A DNA stretch of 64,000 nucleotides, from NCBI GenBank assembly GCA_028344575.1, contig JAOMBO010000003.1, positions 1-64,000 of the forward strand, read 5' to 3'. The position numbers were made by a program, and so were the translations under genes. The notes under the pieces were generated by a model, which made no database searches, was not told the origin of the DNA, and saw nothing but the letters and a program-made list of their open reading frames with translations. The number at the start of each line of letters is the position of its first letter. Positions within the stretch are counted from its first letter, which is position 1. Source of the stretch: Candidatus Nitrosopelagicus sp. (GTDB lineage Archaea; Thermoproteota; Nitrososphaeria; Nitrososphaerales; Nitrosopumilaceae). Shown one piece after another: positions 9,992 to 17,357 of the stretch.

Positions 9992-11308
9992 ATGCAGGAA
10001 TTTGCAAATTCCCCATCATTAAGAAATGGTATATTTGATTTACTTTCTTCTGTAAAACTTGCTACTGATGCAAATGTAAAATTATTAGATTACACGATAC
10101 AATTATTCAAAAATAATGGATTATTCAGCGATTATTATGGATATCACAATGTTGATCATGAACTTGAAGTAACCTATGTTACTCTACTTTCTGGTATACA
10201 TGCACTAGAGGATAATTATATTTCTCGAAATGATTTGAATTATCTCTATGCATCTGCACTTTTGCATGATTTTGATCCTGACAAATCAATTGATAAGCCT
10301 CATGAAAAAAATGTCATACAATTTATTTCAAAAGATCAAACTATTCAAAAACTTCTTGCCGATGCCAATTTAGATCAAAATCTAATTTGTTCTATAATCT
10401 CTAGAACTGTATATCCATGGACTGGAGATGTGATTACAAAAACTGAAAAATTTATCCAAAACTATTTTTCAAATTCTGAGATTAAAGATAACAAAGAACG
10501 ACAAAAACACTTTAGAGATCTAGGTCATTTCCTCTCCATTTCTGACCGTATCGGAGGCTATGCACTAGGTGATTTTCAAAAAGCAATGGAGATGGCAAAA
10601 ATGAATGCTCATTCATCCAGCTGGCATCCCGCATTTATTGTTAGACGCTCAGTTGTTTTCTTTGAAGACATGCTAAATAATGAACCTGATATGTGTCAAA
10701 GAGTTCTAAACGGACTTCCAAAACATATGAGAAAAAATTTCTTAGATAATATAGTTGGTTTCATGAAACTTCGTCAAGAAGAAATTCAAATTTATAATCA
10801 ATTCGTATATGATGGATTACCATTAGTTCCTTGTATCCAGAAGAGCGCACTTTCCGATGATGCCCTTGATGAACTTTTATCCATATATCGAGAATTACCA
10901 AAACCATTACAGTTCACAAGAGACGATTTTATTGAATCAGTTCGTGATCCTGAAACAATTCTTAATATGCTTCGTATTGGAACTTCAACTGGTCAAATTA
11001 TTGGATTTGCAAAAGGTGGACCATTGGAAAAATATAATTTTGATGTCGAGTTTGAAGACCGAAATCGTGGTAAAAACAATACTGTTTTTCTTGAACCTGT
11101 TGCAATTAAAAATGGATATTGGGGATTTCATGGAGGTAGAGAGCTAAGACAATTATTCATGATGCAGGTTCAGTCAAAAGGTTACAAATTCATGACTAGT
11201 TTTGCAATGCGTGATGTAATTGATGAAAGAAAACAAAATGACAAAAATGTTGTTTTTGTCCAAAAGTTTGATCCTGAACGATGGGATTATTTCAGAGTAA
11301 CTCTATAG
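9992..11308 (+). CDS. HD-domain phosphohydrolase fused to an acetyltransferase-like C-terminal domain
   Basis: This 438-residue soluble protein has an N-terminal HD-type metal site: His52 and His56 in GYHNVDHE, and His92-Asp93 in ALLHDFDPD. The helical core continues to about residue 290. The last 140 residues contain alternating strands and a glycine-containing segment (GTSTGQIIGFAKGGPL, VAIKNGYWGFHGGRELRQLFM) that resembles a GNAT acetyltransferase fold. HD proteins hydrolyse phosphate esters such as nucleotides or cyclic dinucleotides; here no substrate is evident. The HD call is good; the GNAT call is tentative. A 7-bp gap separates it from the small TPR gene, so an operon is likely. Confidence 0.75.
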   Translation: MQEFANSPSLRNGIFDLLSSVKLATDANVKLLDYTIQLFKNNGLFSDYYGYHNVDHELEVTYVTLLSGIHALEDNYISRNDLNYLYASALLHDFDPDKSIDKPHEKNVIQFISKDQTIQKLLADANLDQNLICSIISRTVYPWTGDVITKTEKFIQNYFSNSEIKDNKERQKHFRDLGHFLSISDRIGGYALGDFQKAMEMAKMNAHSSSWHPAFIVRRSVVFFEDMLNNEPDMCQRVLNGLPKHMRKNFLDNIVGFMKLRQEEIQIYNQFVYDGLPLVPCIQKSALSDDALDELLSIYRELPKPLQFTRDDFIESVRDPETILNMLRIGTSTGQIIGFAKGGPLEKYNFDVEFEDRNRGKNNTVFLEPVAIKNGYWGFHGGRELRQLFMMQVQSKGYKFMTSFAMRDVIDERKQNDKNVVFVQKFDPERWDYFRVTL

Positions 11309-11776: not shown

Positions 11777-12361
11777 CTAGTATCCGCCTTTAGCAAACTC
11801 ATATTCTTTTTTGTTAAAGTCGAACTTCGTTACTAGTATTTCGCCCATTGCATCTACAGCTGCTTGCACTACATCTGGTTGTGTTGAAAAGAATCCTCTA
11901 AATTTACCAACTCCGTATTCTTCTGCTATCAATCCAATTGGACCATCCGGACCTTTTGTCACTACTGCCCATACTGTTGCAAGTGGTGTTCCTATGCAGC
12001 TTAGTACCTGACAGCTGTCTGGTACTTCTTGAGCTAGATGTGGATTGTTAAAATTTCCAATAACCCATGTTCTTGGAAGTTTCTTCATCAATTTGAGATA
12101 TCTATCTTTAACGAATTCATATCGTTTATCGGTCTCAAATGATGCGAGTAGTGGGGCTGTATGTTTCGATGCATAGTTTTCAATCATTATGCTTAATGCA
12201 AAAAGATCTGAACGGTCTGCTTTGAAGTTTAGATATCCGCCGTCTTGAAAGTCCTGGAAGTTCCAGTTTACAAAAATCTCGTCGCCTTGTTCTGTAATTT
12301 CCTTCTTTTCAGGAAATCTTTCAAATACTGTGTCAATCAAACTATCGTTTGTTAAACCCAT
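11777..12361 (-). CDS. DICT-like sensory domain protein
   Basis: This 194-residue soluble protein is built as a single domain. Segments such as TWVIGNFNNPH, then GTPLATVWAVVTKGPDGPIG and LIAEEYG, then FRGFFSTQPDVVQAAVDAM match the strand order and motifs of DICT domains. These occur with cyclic-dinucleotide, two-component and light-related sensors. The match is from memory and only moderate. Its promoter (12381-12420) carries two CACTA boxes directly in front of the TATA box. It sits downstream of the cobalamin-binding protein gene and upstream of a small membrane protein. It may transmit the cobalamin or redox signal. Confidence 0.55.
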   Translation of the reverse strand: MGLTNDSLIDTVFERFPEKKEITEQGDEIFVNWNFQDFQDGGYLNFKADRSDLFALSIMIENYASKHTAPLLASFETDKRYEFVKDRYLKLMKKLPRTWVIGNFNNPHLAQEVPDSCQVLSCIGTPLATVWAVVTKGPDGPIGLIAEEYGVGKFRGFFSTQPDVVQAAVDAMGEILVTKFDFNKKEYEFAKGGY

Positions 12362-12380
12362 GGTTTTGCTAAACGTATAG

Positions 12381-12419
12381 AATATTTAACCTAGTGGAAA
12401 TTGGTCAAAATAGTGGTAA
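12381..12419 (-). promoter_or_regulatory. Promoter of the DICT-like gene with two CACTA boxes
   Basis: On the gene strand, TTACCACTA (12419-12411) and TTTCCACTAG (12400-12391) are repeated 19 bp apart. The second box abuts a TATA box, TTAAATATT (12389-12381), about 20 bp ahead of the ATG. The same box type recurs at other promoters of this region, so these are probably binding sites of one regulator placed over the BRE/TATA region. Confidence 0.6.
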
Positions 12420-13271
12420 TTACTTCTTTTTTATAATTCGAGGAATTTGTTCCAATGCATGGGCGTCTGTGATGAGTTTTCCATCAAATTTGAAATTTGT
12501 TTTTTCTGAAAAGGCTAGCCCTCCGATGAATATTGGTAGTTTTTTGTACGCCTCGTGGATTTTCTTAACCATTCTTTGACCCGATCTAATATTATCTTCT
12601 AATGTTATGGATACGATTAACGCATCTGGCTTTGCAGTTTTAATAAATTCAATTAATGATTCTGCAGGAGTTGATGGTGAAAGGTTGAACGTTGTAAAGC
12701 CTTTTGAAACTAAAAATGAATCAAGTACATTACATCCTAAATTATGGTCTTCACCAACAGGTGTAGTTAATACAATTTTTCCTTTATCTTTTTTAGATTT
12801 TCTATTTTCATCGGCAATAACTTTCACTAAACTATGTGCAATATTGCTTGCAACATGTTCTGTCGCAATTGATAATTTACCTTCTGACCACAAATAACCA
12901 ATTTCTGCCATAACTGGTGTCATTATTCTTTCATAAAATTGATCAAGTGTGTTGCCTGCTACAAATGCCGTGTAAATGTCCATTGTATCTTTTAGACTTC
13001 CTTCTGTAAGTGATGAAAATAATTTGGTTCTCAGTTGTTCTATTAATTTTTCTCGTTTTTCCCTATCTTTTGGTGTGTTTTGTAGTAAGAATGAATTGAT
13101 TTTTGCATCTTCTCTAAATTCTACTGGAATGTCATCTCTTGTAACGGATGATGATTCTCCTAGATACTTGATGGTCTCTTGCCTTGAAGTCTTTCTTTCT
13201 TTATCCCATGTACTTTTTACTAAATACAGATAATCTACCCCTTTTACCTTCTTTTTTCGAAGATATACCAT
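12420..13271 (-). CDS. Cobalamin-binding sensor with CarH/LitR-type Wx9EH motif, no MerR domain
   Basis: This protein has 283 residues. Residues about 1-45 form a basic leader (MVYLRKKKVKGVDYLYLVKS). Residues about 75-155 are the helical B12-binding-2 bundle with Trp128, nine residues, then Glu138-His139. This is the Wx9EH signature of CarH/LitR photoreceptors that caps adenosylcobalamin. Residues about 165-280 are the Rossmann B12 domain with E174-D-H176-N-L-G179, His176 being the predicted lower cobalt ligand. The N-terminal MerR helix-turn-helix of CarH is missing. A winged-helix gene lies directly upstream on the same strand. The role is inferred to be light or cobalamin sensing with output through partner proteins; a corrinoid carrier for a methyltransferase is the main alternative. 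Confidence 0.85.
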   Translation of the reverse strand: MVYLRKKKVKGVDYLYLVKSTWDKERKTSRQETIKYLGESSSVTRDDIPVEFREDAKINSFLLQNTPKDREKREKLIEQLRTKLFSSLTEGSLKDTMDIYTAFVAGNTLDQFYERIMTPVMAEIGYLWSEGKLSIATEHVASNIAHSLVKVIADENRKSKKDKGKIVLTTPVGEDHNLGCNVLDSFLVSKGFTTFNLSPSTPAESLIEFIKTAKPDALIVSITLEDNIRSGQRMVKKIHEAYKKLPIFIGGLAFSEKTNFKFDGKLITDAHALEQIPRIIKKK

Positions 13272-13286
13272 GCCCTATTTTAGTAA

Positions 13287-13315
13287 TAGTGCCTAATAAG
13301 TATACCTAGTGCTAA
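13287..13315 (-). promoter_or_regulatory. Promoter boxes of the cobalamin sensor gene
   Basis: On the gene strand, TTAGCACTAG (13315-13306) and TTAGGCACTA (13296-13287) are spaced 19-20 bp apart and enclose a TATA-like TATACTTATT. They lie 16-44 bp ahead of the ATG. The boxes match those at 12391-12419 and 16652-16681, which suggests autoregulation of the cobalamin sensor. Confidence 0.55.
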
Positions 13316-13361
13316 CATTAATGATTGAGACGTAAATTTGAATGATTTTCTAACTTCGAAT

Positions 13362-13637
13362 CTAATTTTGTATGCTTAATTCTTGTATTAACTCATTAAT
13401 TTTTGAATAATCTTTGTGAAATTGTTTACCTTTTTCAGTAACCTTGATTTGATCATCACTGTCGATAATTTCTTTAGTTTTCATTTCTTCGAGATATTTT
13501 GTCAATTTATCATAGGATGTATTGCATTTGAACTGAATACGTGTAGGAGAAATACTGTCATTATCCATCTCTTCTTCAAAAATTGCAGAAATTATATCGA
13601 AATATAGCTGAATACGTGTTCTTCTCTCCTTTGCCAT
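13362..13637 (-). CDS. Winged-helix DNA-binding protein (archaeal HTH_45-like)
   Basis: This 91-residue single-domain protein starts with MAKERRTRIQLYFDIISAIFEEE. A helix-turn-helix follows (PTRIQFKCNTSYDKLTKYLEEM divided over residues about 31-52) and a wing ending in IKVTEKGKQFHKDY. The pattern matches the small archaeal winged-helix proteins common in thaumarchaea. It is encoded between the cobalamin sensor and the MEDS-like sensor on the same strand. It is the best candidate for the regulator that binds the CACTA boxes. The pairing with the sensors is inference from position. Confidence 0.75.
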   Translation of the reverse strand: MAKERRTRIQLYFDIISAIFEEEMDNDSISPTRIQFKCNTSYDKLTKYLEEMKTKEIIDSDDQIKVTEKGKQFHKDYSKINELIQELSIQN

Positions 13638-13708
13638 AATTTTTGCATTCTTTTAGACTTTAATAAATCGAGATATGTACTGGTACAAATACAAAAATTG
13701 AGAATTTG

Positions 13709-13736
13709 GTATTTACGACTAGGGAGTGGTAAATAC
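13709..13736. promoter_or_regulatory. Inverted repeat GTATTTAC-N12-GTAAATAC with embedded CACT box
   Basis: An 8-bp perfect inverted repeat with a 12-nt spacer spans the stop codon of the MEDS-like gene. The minus strand contains TTTACCACT, which resembles the CACTA boxes nearby. It lies about 70 bp upstream of the winged-helix gene start. It could be a hairpin in the mRNA or an operator for the downstream gene. Confidence 0.4.
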
Positions 13737-14270
13737 TTCGGTACCTTTCTCTTCTGTCTGAAATATTATTGCTTTATGTGATTCTAACAGTTGATTTAGG
13801 AATCTATCCCTTAGATTTTGATTTATTTGACTAACTTCGAATGAGCAGAGGAAATTACCGTTAATTTTTTCAAAACCGTCATCTACACATTGTTCAATTT
13901 CAGCCATTCTGTCAGTTTTTTCTTCAGTATTGAAGTCAAAATAATGGGTGGATATCACTCTAATTTTGGCCTCTTCAGGAAGTCCTTCAACCTTATCTAA
14001 TATCATTTTTGAATAGTCTTCAAATGCCTCAGGTATTTTGACAATATGGAGGAGTTCGTTATTTTCCGTATTAATTCCAAATCCTTTCATTTCATCTAAA
14101 ATTTTCTGAGGTTTCTGAGTCGTGTAAAAACAATGTTGTCCATTTTCTAGTCCTTTTTTGATAAAATTATACTCTGTTTCTTTTGTTTCATTATTGCCAT
14201 CGTGAAATAGAACTATGTGAGTATGGTCTAATTCTTCTAAAAATTCATTTGCATTAATTGCCTCTGACAT
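13719..14270 (-). CDS. MEDS-like sensory domain protein
   Basis: This 183-residue soluble protein is a single alpha/beta domain beginning HIVLFHDGNNETKETEYNF, with IKKGLENGQHCFYTTQ next. It resembles the P-loop-like MEDS domain of methanogen/methylotroph sensors such as DcmR and of KaiC-related regulators. A canonical Walker A lysine-serine pair is not evident, so nucleotide hydrolysis is unlikely. Its promoter contains a perfect 16-bp palindrome. It lies upstream of the winged-helix and cobalamin-sensor genes and is probably part of the same signalling set. Confidence 0.65.
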   Translation of the reverse strand: MSEAINANEFLEELDHTHIVLFHDGNNETKETEYNFIKKGLENGQHCFYTTQKPQKILDEMKGFGINTENNELLHIVKIPEAFEDYSKMILDKVEGLPEEAKIRVISTHYFDFNTEEKTDRMAEIEQCVDDGFEKINGNFLCSFEVSQINQNLRDRFLNQLLESHKAIIFQTEEKGTEVFTTP

Positions 14271-14292: not shown

Positions 14293-14320
14293 TAATAAAC
14301 CAACACTCACCATGGTGAGT
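14293..14320 (-). promoter_or_regulatory. 16-bp palindrome ACTCACCATGGTGAGT beside a TATA box
   Basis: The perfect palindrome occupies 14305-14320, and a TATA-like GGTTTATTAG sits just downstream on the minus strand, ahead of the MEDS-like gene. The half-site ACTCACCAT recurs at 16661-16669 between two CACTAG boxes of the SDR operon promoter (as ACTCACCATA). It is therefore a likely operator of the same regulatory set. It lies between divergent genes and could control both. Confidence 0.6.
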
Positions 14321-14581: not shown

Positions 14582-16051
14582 TTATGTGAAATCTGTATTA
14601 TAGACGGGTCTTGCCCCGCTTGGAACTTCTGCTCCGGCAGATTCTTTGACTGATTCACCCCTTGCCTGGTAAACCCTGACTTTGTGAAATACGTTATGAG
14701 ATGAAAATATTGCCAATCCTGCAAATGCAGCTCCTATGAAATTTCTTAATGTCACATCTATGCTTGGTTCTGCACCTATTACCGACATTTGGAATACAAC
14801 GTAAAAATTGTCAAATAACCAAAATGCCAAAGTTACCCATGATAACAGTCCTCCAATAAGATATCCTAGTCTTGCTTTCTGCCTTACAAATAAAATTGCA
14901 AAAATGATTGCGACATACCATATTGCTGATCCAAATAACCATGAAATTTCCCAGACATCTGTTCTATCATCCATCCAATAGTATGTGGACCCTATAATTG
15001 CCATGGCACAAAGTGAAATCAAAAGTAATTTCTGATTAACTTTGTATGATGTCTTTTCTTCAGGTAATTTTCCAATAGGTTTGAATGCTACTGCCTCATC
15101 TCTGGCTTCTTTGATTGCTTCGGTCATATGCTTGAGGTTTATTGGAACTAATTCATCAATGCTGTTGTCTTTAACATAAGAATCATGTACCAAACTATCT
15201 ACTAGTGGTCTTGCAAGTGATGCCTTTACTGGAGTTACTAAATCAATCCAGTATGATGATAATCTTGGAGTCAAAAATGGAATTTGTATGATGTTTAGGT
15301 TTCGATTAATTATTGATGAATAAAGTCTCATCATTTGTTCGTATGTCATTTTGTCTGGTCCTCCTATTTCTAATGTCTTTCCTGCAGTCATTGGATTTTT
15401 CATCACGCCAACCAAATAATCTACAACATTATCTACTGCGATTGGTTGTGTTGTTGATTTAACCCATTTTGGACATACCATTAGTGGTAATCTTTCTACT
15501 AGATATCTGAGCATTGCATAAGAACCGCCTTCTGCTCCTACTATTACGGATGCTCTTAATTCTGTCACAGGAATATTGCCTGATGCTAAAATTTTACCAA
15601 CTTCGTGTCTACTTCTCATATGCTTTGATAATTCTAAACTCTCGTTAACTAGACCTCCTAGGTAGATTATCCTCTTTACTCCTGCATCTTCTGCAGCTTT
15701 AAGAAAATTCTGAGCCTGTAGTTTTTCTCTATCTGCAAATTTTTCCCATTCTTTTTTTGAACCCTCCATTGAATGTAGGAGATAAAATGCTGTTTCTATA
15801 CCCTTTAGTGCTTTAGTTAATGAATTCATTTCAAATGCATCGGCTGCAACAAATTTGATATTTTCTGCGTCCGGATATTTTGATCTAGACATAGCAGTAA
15901 CTTTGTAACCTGTTTTGGCTAATCTCTCGAGTAATTTTTTTCCGATGAAACCCGTTGCACCTGTTACTAAAATTGAATAATCTTTTGTGTCTGCATTTTC
16001 TTTTAATGCTGCCATTTTCTCTAATCTGCTTGAACTAGCCTGTTGACTCAT
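14582..16051 (-). CDS. Atypical SDR / NAD(P)-dependent epimerase-like protein with C-terminal membrane domain
   Basis: This protein has 489 residues. Residues about 27-300 form a Rossmann domain with the dinucleotide motif TGATGFIGKKLL and VAADAFE, close to the NmrA/NDUFA9-type atypical SDRs. Residues about 345-465 contain four hydrophobic helices. The fusion of an SDR to a helical membrane domain suggests reduction of a lipid or quinone-like substrate at the membrane. Related SDRs are often found in light-responsive LitR/CarH gene sets in bacteria; this is general knowledge and not proof. It is the third gene of the operon starting at 16620, with a 4-bp gap to the gene before it. Confidence 0.8.
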   Translation of the reverse strand: MSQQASSSRLEKMAALKENADTKDYSILVTGATGFIGKKLLERLAKTGYKVTAMSRSKYPDAENIKFVAADAFEMNSLTKALKGIETAFYLLHSMEGSKKEWEKFADREKLQAQNFLKAAEDAGVKRIIYLGGLVNESLELSKHMRSRHEVGKILASGNIPVTELRASVIVGAEGGSYAMLRYLVERLPLMVCPKWVKSTTQPIAVDNVVDYLVGVMKNPMTAGKTLEIGGPDKMTYEQMMRLYSSIINRNLNIIQIPFLTPRLSSYWIDLVTPVKASLARPLVDSLVHDSYVKDNSIDELVPINLKHMTEAIKEARDEAVAFKPIGKLPEEKTSYKVNQKLLLISLCAMAIIGSTYYWMDDRTDVWEISWLFGSAIWYVAIIFAILFVRQKARLGYLIGGLLSWVTLAFWLFDNFYVVFQMSVIGAEPSIDVTLRNFIGAAFAGLAIFSSHNVFHKVRVYQARGESVKESAGAEVPSGARPVYNTDFT

Positions 16052-16055
16052 TTTA

Positions 16056-16415
16056 TCACTCCTTGTCTAATTTACGAAGTTCTTTGAGATCTACAATCTC
16101 TATGTCTTTACTCAATGTAACTAAAGATGATAATTTTGGTTTAGCATTTTTGCCCATTTTAAGGACTAGTTTATTTTTATGTAATATCTCAAGTGTAACA
16201 TTCTCCTTTTTTAGGATTTTACCAATATGCTTGGCCTCGGTAAGTTGTTTTAGTAGGCTCATTTTCCCAGGAATTTTTGTAGGAAGATGTGCGATGTTTA
16301 TTCTTCTTATATCTCCTTTTGAGGAAAATTCTATGGCTGTGCCATCTTTATCACTGACGGTTAAATCTCCGCTACGGAGGTAAAGTAAAAAATTGGCAGG
16401 AAGGTCGCTTTTCAT
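16056..16415 (-). CDS. Conserved-looking soluble protein of unknown function
   Basis: This 119-residue protein is rich in Leu, Lys and short beta segments, without Cys, membrane helices or an identifiable motif. It lies between the 62-residue gene and the SDR gene, with gaps of 16 and 4 bp, so the three are almost certainly one transcript. Its N-terminal half (LLYLRSGDLTVSDKDGTAIE) could be a beta sandwich or SCP2-like lipid carrier, but this is weak. Confidence 0.6.
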   Translation of the reverse strand: MKSDLPANFLLYLRSGDLTVSDKDGTAIEFSSKGDIRRINIAHLPTKIPGKMSLLKQLTEAKHIGKILKKENVTLEILHKNKLVLKMGKNAKPKLSSLVTLSKDIEIVDLKELRKLDKE

Positions 16416-16431
16416 TTCGTATCAATCCTGA

Positions 16432-16620
16432 TTAGGTTTTTGTTGTAATAGTCAATCCGCCTGTTAGCACAACTGTTCCAGTTGAAACTTTTTTACCATT
16501 TCTGTCTACCATTCCGCTAAGTTCTAACTTATCGAATTTGTATGAAATGGCTGCGTGCTTTGCAGTTAGTTTATCAAAAACTTCTGCCAGGAGACTTGCC
16601 CATTCTTGTTCTTCTGTCAT
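16432..16620 (-). CDS. 62-residue small protein, first gene of the SDR operon
   Basis: A helical N-terminal half (EQEWASLLAEVFDKLTAKHA) is followed by a beta-rich C-terminal half. No family is recognised. The promoter in front of it has two CACTAG boxes 19 bp apart that abut a TATA box, so it leads the putative regulon operon 16620 to 14582. Confidence 0.6.
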   Translation of the reverse strand: MTEEQEWASLLAEVFDKLTAKHAAISYKFDKLELSGMVDRNGKKVSTGTVVLTGGLTITTKT

Positions 16621-16642: not shown

Positions 16643-16752
16643 TATTAAAGCCTAGTGCCCTATGGTGAGTCTAGTGCCTAATGTTTACCACTAGAAATTA
16701 AATAATGCTAATACTTACCACTATACATACCCTAGTGCATAACCCATAAATA
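16643..16752. promoter_or_regulatory. Divergent promoter region with five CACTAG-type boxes
   Basis: For the minus-strand operon, TTAGGCACTAG (16681-16671) and GGGCACTAG (16660-16652) are 19 bp apart, and the second abuts TATA-like CTTTAATATC (16650-16641). For the plus-strand gene, TTACCACTAG (16685-16694) and TTACCACTA (16715-16723) point forward. A reverse copy, CTAGTGCATAA (16732-16742), abuts the TATA-like ATAAATA (16746-16752). ACTCACCATA lies between the first two boxes. This is the densest cluster of the motif in the window. Confidence 0.65.
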
Positions 16753-16775: not shown

Positions 16776-17357
16776 ATGAGCACTACACAATCACTTCCAA
16801 GTAAGATCGCATTGATGAAGGGTGGAATCGGAGCAGGCCTAATGGGTGGCTTTGCATTATTCTCATCATTCTTTGCAATCGATCAAATGTTAGATATCCC
16901 AGCAGGAACATTCTACAAAACTATCGGTATTACAATGGGCGTAGATGAAGGATTAGCAATTGCAATGGGCTTTATGGCACACATGGGCGTTGCAGCATTG
17001 ATTGGAGCCATGTACTTTTTGGCTTCAAACATTTGGAGATTCTTCAGATTGGTAACAGTCCCAAAAGCAATAATTACTGGTGTTTGGACTGGGCTAATTG
17101 TTTTCACAATAGCATTCTTACCAATTCACATGTTCGTAATGACTCCAATGATGGAGGTAGAATTGATAATTACTGACGTATCTCAATTTGACTTGGAACA
17201 ACAAAAAGCATTAGCAACTTTGTTGTATGAAAGCGACAAAATTTACATCAATGCATTGATTCTTCATGTAATATACGGAGGAATCGCAGGATTCATTGGA
17301 GGTTGCATAATGCATGACGACTACAAAGGAGTGAAAAGGATTGCCGGATTCTGGTAA
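16776..17357 (+). CDS. Four-helix membrane protein of unknown function
   Basis: This 193-residue protein has four hydrophobic segments (about residues 14-36, 60-82, 95-118 and 155-175), glycine- and methionine-rich, with a hydrophilic loop between helices 3 and 4. No transporter motif is recognised. It is driven from the divergent promoter with CACTAG boxes and overlaps the next gene by 17 bp. It is probably part of the same regulon as the SDR operon. Confidence 0.7.
   Translation: MSTTQSLPSKIALMKGGIGAGLMGGFALFSSFFAIDQMLDIPAGTFYKTIGITMGVDEGLAIAMGFMAHMGVAALIGAMYFLASNIWRFFRLVTVPKAIITGVWTGLIVFTIAFLPIHMFVMTPMMEVELIITDVSQFDLEQQKALATLLYESDKIYINALILHVIYGGIAGFIGGCIMHDDYKGVKRIAGFW

Follow-up and report, generated by a model that had tools for sequence, protein, structure and literature searches.

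What does a cobalamin (vitamin B12) sensor do in an ammonia-oxidizing archaeon? The question is raised by a 283-residue protein encoded in a 64,000-nucleotide stretch of Candidatus Nitrosopelagicus sp. (contig JAOMBO010000003.1, positions 1 to 64,000; hereafter, the window), which bears the Wx9EH motif of CarH-type B12 photoreceptors and lies next to genes for DICT-like, winged-helix and MEDS proteins. Ammonia oxidation by these archaea is inhibited by light, according to the part of PMC9239080 consulted (the other papers are likewise cited from parts of their text). A reading made from the sequence only had proposed that the sensor and DNA-binding parts of a light- or cobalamin-responsive circuit are split among the four genes, whose ORFs are as it stated. 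The explanation we favor, with confidence a little above even, is that the 283-residue protein is a cobalamin-dependent, CarH-like transcription regulator with a non-MerR DNA-binding domain and a photo-oxidative regulon. What is new here is a direct-repeat element upstream of the B12 regulator across Nitrososphaeria, and with the protein it points to a possible archaeal light-response circuit.

A CarH-type cobalamin domain

Two Pfam models exceeded their cut-offs on the 283-residue protein, i.e., B12-binding (1.1e-10) and B12-binding_2 (6.6e-9). The top NCBIfam model was CarH, with 62.1 bits over residues 77–230, a score that falls short of the 400-bit cut-off for CarH equivalogs. The cobalamin domain is a helical bundle followed by a Rossmann domain according to Pfam, a fold search and AlphaFold2 (mean predicted local distance difference test, pLDDT, of 88 for the full protein, with 19 aligned sequences). 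The best 50 Foldseek matches were all photocobilins, CarH/LitR proteins or a MerR-type B12 protein. In a profile search of the PDB the top matches were photocobilins (83 bits), a MerR-type B12 protein and CarH (60.1 bits), followed by MetH (57.4 bits), with AerR at 45 bits.

The residues W128, E138-H139 and E174-D-H176-N-L-G179, named in the sequence-only reading, are indeed present; their aligned counterparts in TtCarH are W, EH and GERHEIG. Of 58 homologues, all have H176, and each of W128, E138 and H139 is retained by 56; the pattern G..W.{9}EH was present in 77/77 named loci (L240–L316, examined of 80 fetched). In seven further B12-domain proteins of these genomes the tryptophan position is occupied by F or Y and EH is missing; as Wx9EH was not found in any of them, it is not a general trait of B12 domains. 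Four signatures of B12 photoreceptors are described in the consulted part of PMC11796333, i.e., GxxW, EH, GxxH and GxxxP, and the first three occur here (G125–W128, E138-H139 and G173–H176).

The protein is very unlikely to serve a methyltransferase system as its corrinoid methyl carrier. Such carriers have the same two-part B12 domain, and carrier families score 27–55 bits on the protein, far under their cut-offs of at least 215 bits. Structure prediction did not place it with corrinoid methyltransferase carriers among the best 50 fold matches, and no methyltransferase was found among the annotated neighbor clusters (many clusters were left unannotated). We rejected this candidate on its scores and on the presence of Wx9EH, which the seven other B12 proteins lack.

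A conserved basic domain at the N terminus

The protein had been described as having no DNA-binding domain. This was right for the MerR helix-turn-helix, which was not found by Pfam, NCBIfam or AlphaFold2; it need not hold for the N terminus as a whole, where residues 1–62 form a conserved domain of their own, with 17 invariant columns among 16 diverse members. AlphaFold2 predicts long strands at residues 2–9, 12–23 and 28–39 and a helix at 56–65 (mean pLDDT of 86 when the domain is modelled alone). The median net charge is +7 for residues 1–40 versus +2 for the remainder of the protein.

A profile of this domain had matches in 163/400 genomes of the class and in 33/82 genera, weak ones included. 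Among those listed, the strong matches are in open reading frames (ORFs) mostly of 280–350 residues, with a few shorter ones, some of the latter near contig ends. Weak matches are at the N termini of ORFs of 459–493 residues (one of them DDE_Tnp_1) and of about 300 residues (one of them Fic). By sequence, the domain appears related to the N termini of DDE-transposase ORFs, and we regard this three-stranded basic domain as putatively DNA-binding. Fic-type ORFs with an N terminus like that of the B12 regulator were seen at L335 and L332–L334 (G140, G132, G098, G181), one confirmed by Pfam and the rest judged by eye.

A direct-repeat element at the regulator promoter

Across Nitrososphaeria, the region upstream of the gene contains two TTAGCACTA-like half-sites separated by a spacer of ~10 bp and positioned beside a TATA box. 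The window element, TTAGCACTAGGTATACTTATTAGGCACTA, is near-identical in close relatives. The pattern TAGCACTAN{8,14}TTAGNCAYTA was found in 17/61 relatives, with one match each and always at the regulator, and its reversed control in 1/61. Upstream of the 58 genes examined (loci spanning three families), two or more half-sites within 60 bp were present in 41, versus 1/1160 in shuffles, and at least one half-site in 48. In the common layout, two same-strand half-sites end near −48 and −29 and the second adjoins a TATA-like box. A 19–21-bp direct repeat was detected in 49 of the 77 named loci, and at least one half-site in 76.

In the window's genus the half-sites flank the TATA-like stretch, an arrangement that would suit autorepression. 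The second half-site there is one base longer, the form covered by the pattern found in 17/61 relatives. A scan of the window allowing one mismatch found 16 half-sites versus 12.7 expected, i.e., chance level, so only the pairs and their placement are informative. Ten of the 58 genes had no half-site. Three have an operon layout, the regulator following a gene that itself has half-sites (L053–L055), two have neither half-site nor Wx9EH (L131, L151), and five are left.

The element tracks the gene across genomes

A strict form of the element, TTAGCACTAN{9,11}TTRSCAYYA, was detected in 95/400 genomes and its reversed control in none of the 400. It was present in 89/144 genomes with the gene versus 6/256 without. 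Here 19 of the 163 N-terminal matches (E > 2.1e-7, our own cut) were counted as gene absent; those read among them were transposase-type, Fic-type or short ORFs. None of the 19 genomes has the strict element, and scoring them as gene-bearing gives 89/163 versus 6/237.

Of the six gene-less genomes with the element, four have it inside ORFs (93, 205, 951 and 439 residues). The sites of the other two, G395 (87% complete) and G284 (84%), are promoter-like with no gene found, and the gene may be missing from these assemblies. An element match more than 150 bp from any listed gene start was found in 52/144 gene-bearing genomes, a slight overcount, as at least three of the places adjoin unlisted homologues (L199, L204 and one of two in L221). 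The sites away from the regulator mostly precede genes, directly ahead of a TATA-like box; the exceptions are one inside a 573-residue ORF (L220) and those inside small ORFs (L202, L203).

Winged helix and MEDS as a separate module

The identities proposed for two neighbors, winged helix and MEDS, were borne out, whereas the third protein is just DICT-like (Table 1). Gene order was another matter: the four genes occur in the window's order and orientation in only 7/24 loci (contig ends interrupt two others). In other loci the winged-helix gene is inverted (three loci), or winged helix and MEDS are missing. Close winged-helix homologues (E < 1e-15) and MEDS, mutually adjacent, are in the same 5/16 sensor-bearing genomes, and weaker winged-helix matches in 14/16. 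Outside the window's close group, among the 58 loci, winged helix and MEDS adjoin only the two paralogues of the regulator without Wx9EH. An exact palindrome, CTCACCNNGGTGAG, precedes MEDS in 9/10 MEDS-bearing loci of the window's group, and was not found at the winged-helix and MEDS pairs of three other loci (L344–L346). The winged helix and MEDS are a separate module.

A split circuit, with a B12 sensor lacking a DNA-binding part and working via its winged-helix, MEDS and DICT-like neighbors, therefore seems improbable to us and was rejected on gene order; a lack of conserved order, which the sequence-only reading had itself named as counting against it, held for this set of four. The four genes lie side by side in six close relatives as well as in the window, half-sites are present at the DICT-like promoter, and the consulted part of PMC11796333 reports MEDS fusions of light-responsive B12 domains; however, the order is kept in few loci, the winged helix and MEDS in few sensor genomes, the MEDS promoter has a palindrome of its own, and the sensor has its own basic N-terminal domain. 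The neighboring winged helix was likewise rejected as reader of the TTAGCACTA element, its close homologues being in just those 5/16 genomes.

In a tree of 71 sequences, the nine without Wx9EH formed one clade (support 1.0). Their promoters have ACTCA(C/T)(C/T)NNGG(T/A)G in 9/9 cases (by eye), not the TTAGCACTA element. As a side observation, MEDS genes (window 14306–14319) are preceded by another conserved promoter element, which reads ACTCACC-NN-GGTGAGT or nearly so and is also found before the Wx9EH-less paralogues at L131, L151, L227–L231, L233 and L234.

Neighboring genes and the likely regulon

Recurrent neighbors of the regulator are a short-chain dehydrogenase (SDR), a flavin adenine dinucleotide (FAD) oxidoreductase, a photolyase (in 6 loci), DUF1722 and TFIIB. 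We counted upstream regions with at least two half-sites for each neighbor cluster. They were most of those of the secreted-type c3 (13/18), membrane-type c2 (11/17), DUF1722 c13 (9/12), TFIIB-type c18 (6/11) and c19, the first ORF of the SDR operon (9/9; SDR itself, 5/34). Clusters c14 (5/12), c16 (4/11) and the CrtI/amine-oxidase-like FAD protein c8 (3/14; one half-site in 10/14) had fewer. DICT c1 had two half-sites in 0/19 and one in 15/19; in the window, the second half-site at the DICT-like gene has 2 mismatches and was assigned by eye. Clusters c4, c5, c6, c9, c11, c15 and c17 had at least two half-sites in 0/88 upstream regions. The counts are not independent, as c2/c19, c3/c13 and c14/c18 have common intergenic regions.

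TFIIB paralogues are near the regulator in 10/58 loci (e.g., L052:7216-8148), mostly with one half-site facing the gene, and often with one before it or ahead of a small ORF in front of it; in L210 a full repeat precedes a 67-residue ORF and then a TFIIB-like ORF (by eye). Direct repeats were also observed in the common intergenic region of the divergent c3/c13 pair, a DUF1722 protein and a secreted-type protein containing NNAGWWADG repeats (examples, L193, L195, L201, L209, L214 and L216).

Evidence against the regulator reading, and its rivals

Several results weigh against a CarH-like regulator that reads the TTAGCACTA repeats. With regard to the cobalamin domain, a MetH chain (52.6 bits) outranked CarH (45–46 bits) in a single-sequence search, so sequence score alone cannot separate the two; the residues do. 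GxxxP is not present, its glycine being replaced by Ser198 as we read the alignment (GPDTP in TtCarH versus S198-P-S-T-P202 here, with P202 kept in 57/58); GxxxP is not by itself a defining feature of CarH/LitR. Ser129 aligns with a histidine of TtCarH, which we take to be His132. TtCarH has bis-His ligation in its light state, which is not expected here given this serine.

For the N-terminal domain, Foldseek found no clear PDB fold match (best E 0.26, PI-SceI domain I), and the only Pfam model was MrcB_N (PF12102), below its 25-bit cut-off (7/16 members matching, best E 0.0047; 15.6 bits for the window protein). In a VIA search Z did not rise above 4.3, the value for ribosomal S16; PC4 (3.2) and an arm-type integrase domain (2.4) scored lower, and no match was informative. 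With regard to the element, the strict pattern is absent in 55/144 gene-bearing genomes, including nearly all of the window's genus, and the Fisher test of the element–gene association (p 1e-42) ignores kinship. Five loci with Wx9EH (L127, L140, L142, L146 and L148) lack both a half-site within 150 bp and the L053–L055 layout, and a half-site was found at only 1/6 photolyase genes.

One rival is that the TTAGCACTA element is read by some other factor, such as a TFIIB paralogue via the TFB recognition element (BRE) or another regulator, with the B12 protein an AerR-like co-regulator or a member of the regulon. In many cases the second half-site lies directly against the TATA box, at which transcription factor B (TFB) binds, TFIIB-type genes recur nearby, and AerR matches the B12 domain. 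We nevertheless consider this unlikely, because the element follows the gene across genomes, a different element is found in the clade that lost Wx9EH, the N-terminal domain is basic and found on transposase-type ORFs, and the winged helix is an unlikely reader.

Less likely still is the same regulator responding not to light but to the level of adenosylcobalamin (AdoCbl) or another corrinoid, or to oxygen or redox damage to cobalamin. Any AdoCbl-dependent repressor senses the level of its cofactor, and Ser129 and Ser198 differ from TtCarH; the retention of Wx9EH in 56/58 homologues, and photolyase, FAD oxidoreductase and SDR as neighbors, speak for light.

Comparison with known systems and proposed mechanism

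The protein shares with CarH and class I LitR (TtCarH, PDB 5c8a, 5c8d-f) a two-domain plan with ~70 N-terminal residues at the DNA-binding position, a B12 domain with Wx9EH and a lower histidine, and a direct-repeat element at the promoter. Its N terminus is a three-stranded sheet, unlike the MerR winged helix of CarH, Ser129 and Ser198 differ from TtCarH, the promoter is of archaeal TATA/BRE type, and the TTAGCACTA repeats are 19–20 bp apart, in contrast to the tandem 11-bp repeats of the CarH operator (nAnnTnnACAn, in the part consulted of PMC8156234). As a MerR domain was looked for without success, the protein is best read as acting like CarH from outside the MerR-type CarH/LitR family.

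The B12 domain has its best matches, in fold as in sequence, among photocobilins (8j2w, 8j2x and 8j2y), but the protein stops after that domain, with no biliverdin-binding domain by ORF, Pfam or AlphaFold2. AerR (7te2) also has a B12 domain without a MerR domain; it scores lower than CarH (45 versus 60 bits), and the protein described here has an extra conserved N-terminal domain. AerR is without a DNA-binding domain and acts through a PpsR/CrtJ-type repressor. Myxococcus xanthus CarH and CarA are B12-type and B12-independent paralogues (PMC9304148 and PMC8156234, in part); a B12-type regulator plus a second paralogue exist here too, although this paralogue lacks Wx9EH and has another upstream element. 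The Pseudomonas class II LitR region has a photolyase, a short-chain dehydrogenase and an FAD-dependent oxidoreductase, as here, although that LitR is of MerR type and keeps only the helix bundle, with no B12 expected (PMC9758184, in part).

In the dark, AdoCbl-bound CarH sits on direct repeats at its promoter and light breaks the complex (PMC8156234, in part). By analogy, the C-terminal domain of the archaeal regulator would hold AdoCbl between the helix bundle and the Rossmann fold, and the N-terminal domain would bind the TTAGCACTA direct repeats, ~19–20 bp apart, abutting or flanking TATA/BRE. The bound regulator would repress in the dark, the second repeat at BRE/TATA blocking TATA-binding protein and TFB. 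Light, or loss of AdoCbl, would alter the state of the C-terminal domain, and light would thereby release a photo-oxidative-stress response. Probable targets are its own gene, the SDR operon, the CrtI/amine-oxidase-like FAD protein, secreted and membrane proteins, the TFIIB paralogue and, here, the DICT-like protein.

Features of the locus

The window's genome is an 857-kb assembly in 16 contigs (completeness 66%), and the named relatives with proteins 96–100% identical are mostly Candidatus Nitrosopelagicus. The six half-sites between the SDR operon and its divergent neighbor are at 16652-16662, 16672-16681, 16703-16711 and 16732-16742 on the minus strand and at 16685-16693 and 16715-16723 on the plus strand. 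Also in the window, a 438-residue ORF (9992–11308), kept beside the regulator locus in the window's close group, appears by eye to have an HD-type N-terminal and a GNAT-like C-terminal part, for which Pfam Acetyltransf_1 reaches just E 0.17.

Table 1 Positions of the regulator, its promoter element and neighboring features in the window.
Feature	Position	Strand	Basis
B12 regulator gene, 283 residues	12420..13271	-	ORF, Pfam, NCBIfam, sequence searches
N-terminal domain, residues 1-62, putative DNA-binding	13086..13271	-	AlphaFold2, conservation, charge, transposase/Fic N termini
Cobalamin-binding domain, residues 78-281, with W128, E138-H139, H176	12429..13040	-	Pfam, fold, alignments
Direct-repeat element, regulator's own promoter	13287..13315	-	TTAGCACTA at 13307-13315, TTAGGCACTA at 13287-13296
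DICT-like gene, 194 residues	11777..12361	-	Pfam DICT E 0.073, below cut-off
Half-sites before DICT-like gene	12391..12419	-	TTACCACTA at 12411-12419, TTTCCACTAG at 12391-12400, then TTAAATA
Winged-helix protein, 91 residues, HTH_45 / Sso10a-like	13362..13637	-	Pfam HTH_45, 2.6e-12
MEDS-domain protein, 183 residues	13719..14270	-	Pfam MEDS 2.5e-8, over cut-off
Palindrome CTCACCATGGTGAG, upstream of MEDS	14306..14319	.	Distinct from TTAGCACTA element
NmrA-type SDR with C-terminal membrane part	14582..16051	-	Commonest regulator neighbor, 35/58 loci
119-residue ORF upstream of SDR, same strand	16056..16415	-	Without Pfam match
62-residue ORF, first of presumed SDR operon, cluster c19	16432..16620	-	ORF call, neighbor clustering
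Six half-sites between SDR operon and divergent gene at 16776	16652..16742	.	Half-site scan
Membrane-type protein, 193 residues, divergent from SDR operon	16776..17357	+	Half-site cluster in common; without Pfam match

Implications for photoinhibition and archaeal transcription

We found no publication on such a protein in ammonia-oxidizing archaea in the parts of the open-licence PMC literature searched. The significance that the sequence-only reading saw in a CarH-type Wx9EH cobalamin domain in a thaumarchaeon, within an apparent photo-oxidative circuit, holds up, and the DICT-like gene also has promoter half-sites. A bolder form of the explanation is possible, though we hold it with less than even confidence, i.e., a family of B12 photoreceptor-repressors across ammonia-oxidizing archaea, with a DNA-binding domain akin to that of transposases, binding TTAGCACTA repeats and placed at the head of a TFIIB-paralogue cascade, with a B12-insensitive sister clade that moved to another site. 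If true, this cascade would be the archaeal equivalent of alternative sigma factors under light control. A regulator of the kind we favor would bring the B12-photoreceptor principle, joined to a different DNA-binding domain, into the TATA/TFB transcription of archaea. A B12 switch whose promoter element is defined would also offer a direct, testable molecular handle on the photoinhibition of these archaea, in the genes that respond to light and the protein through which they do so.

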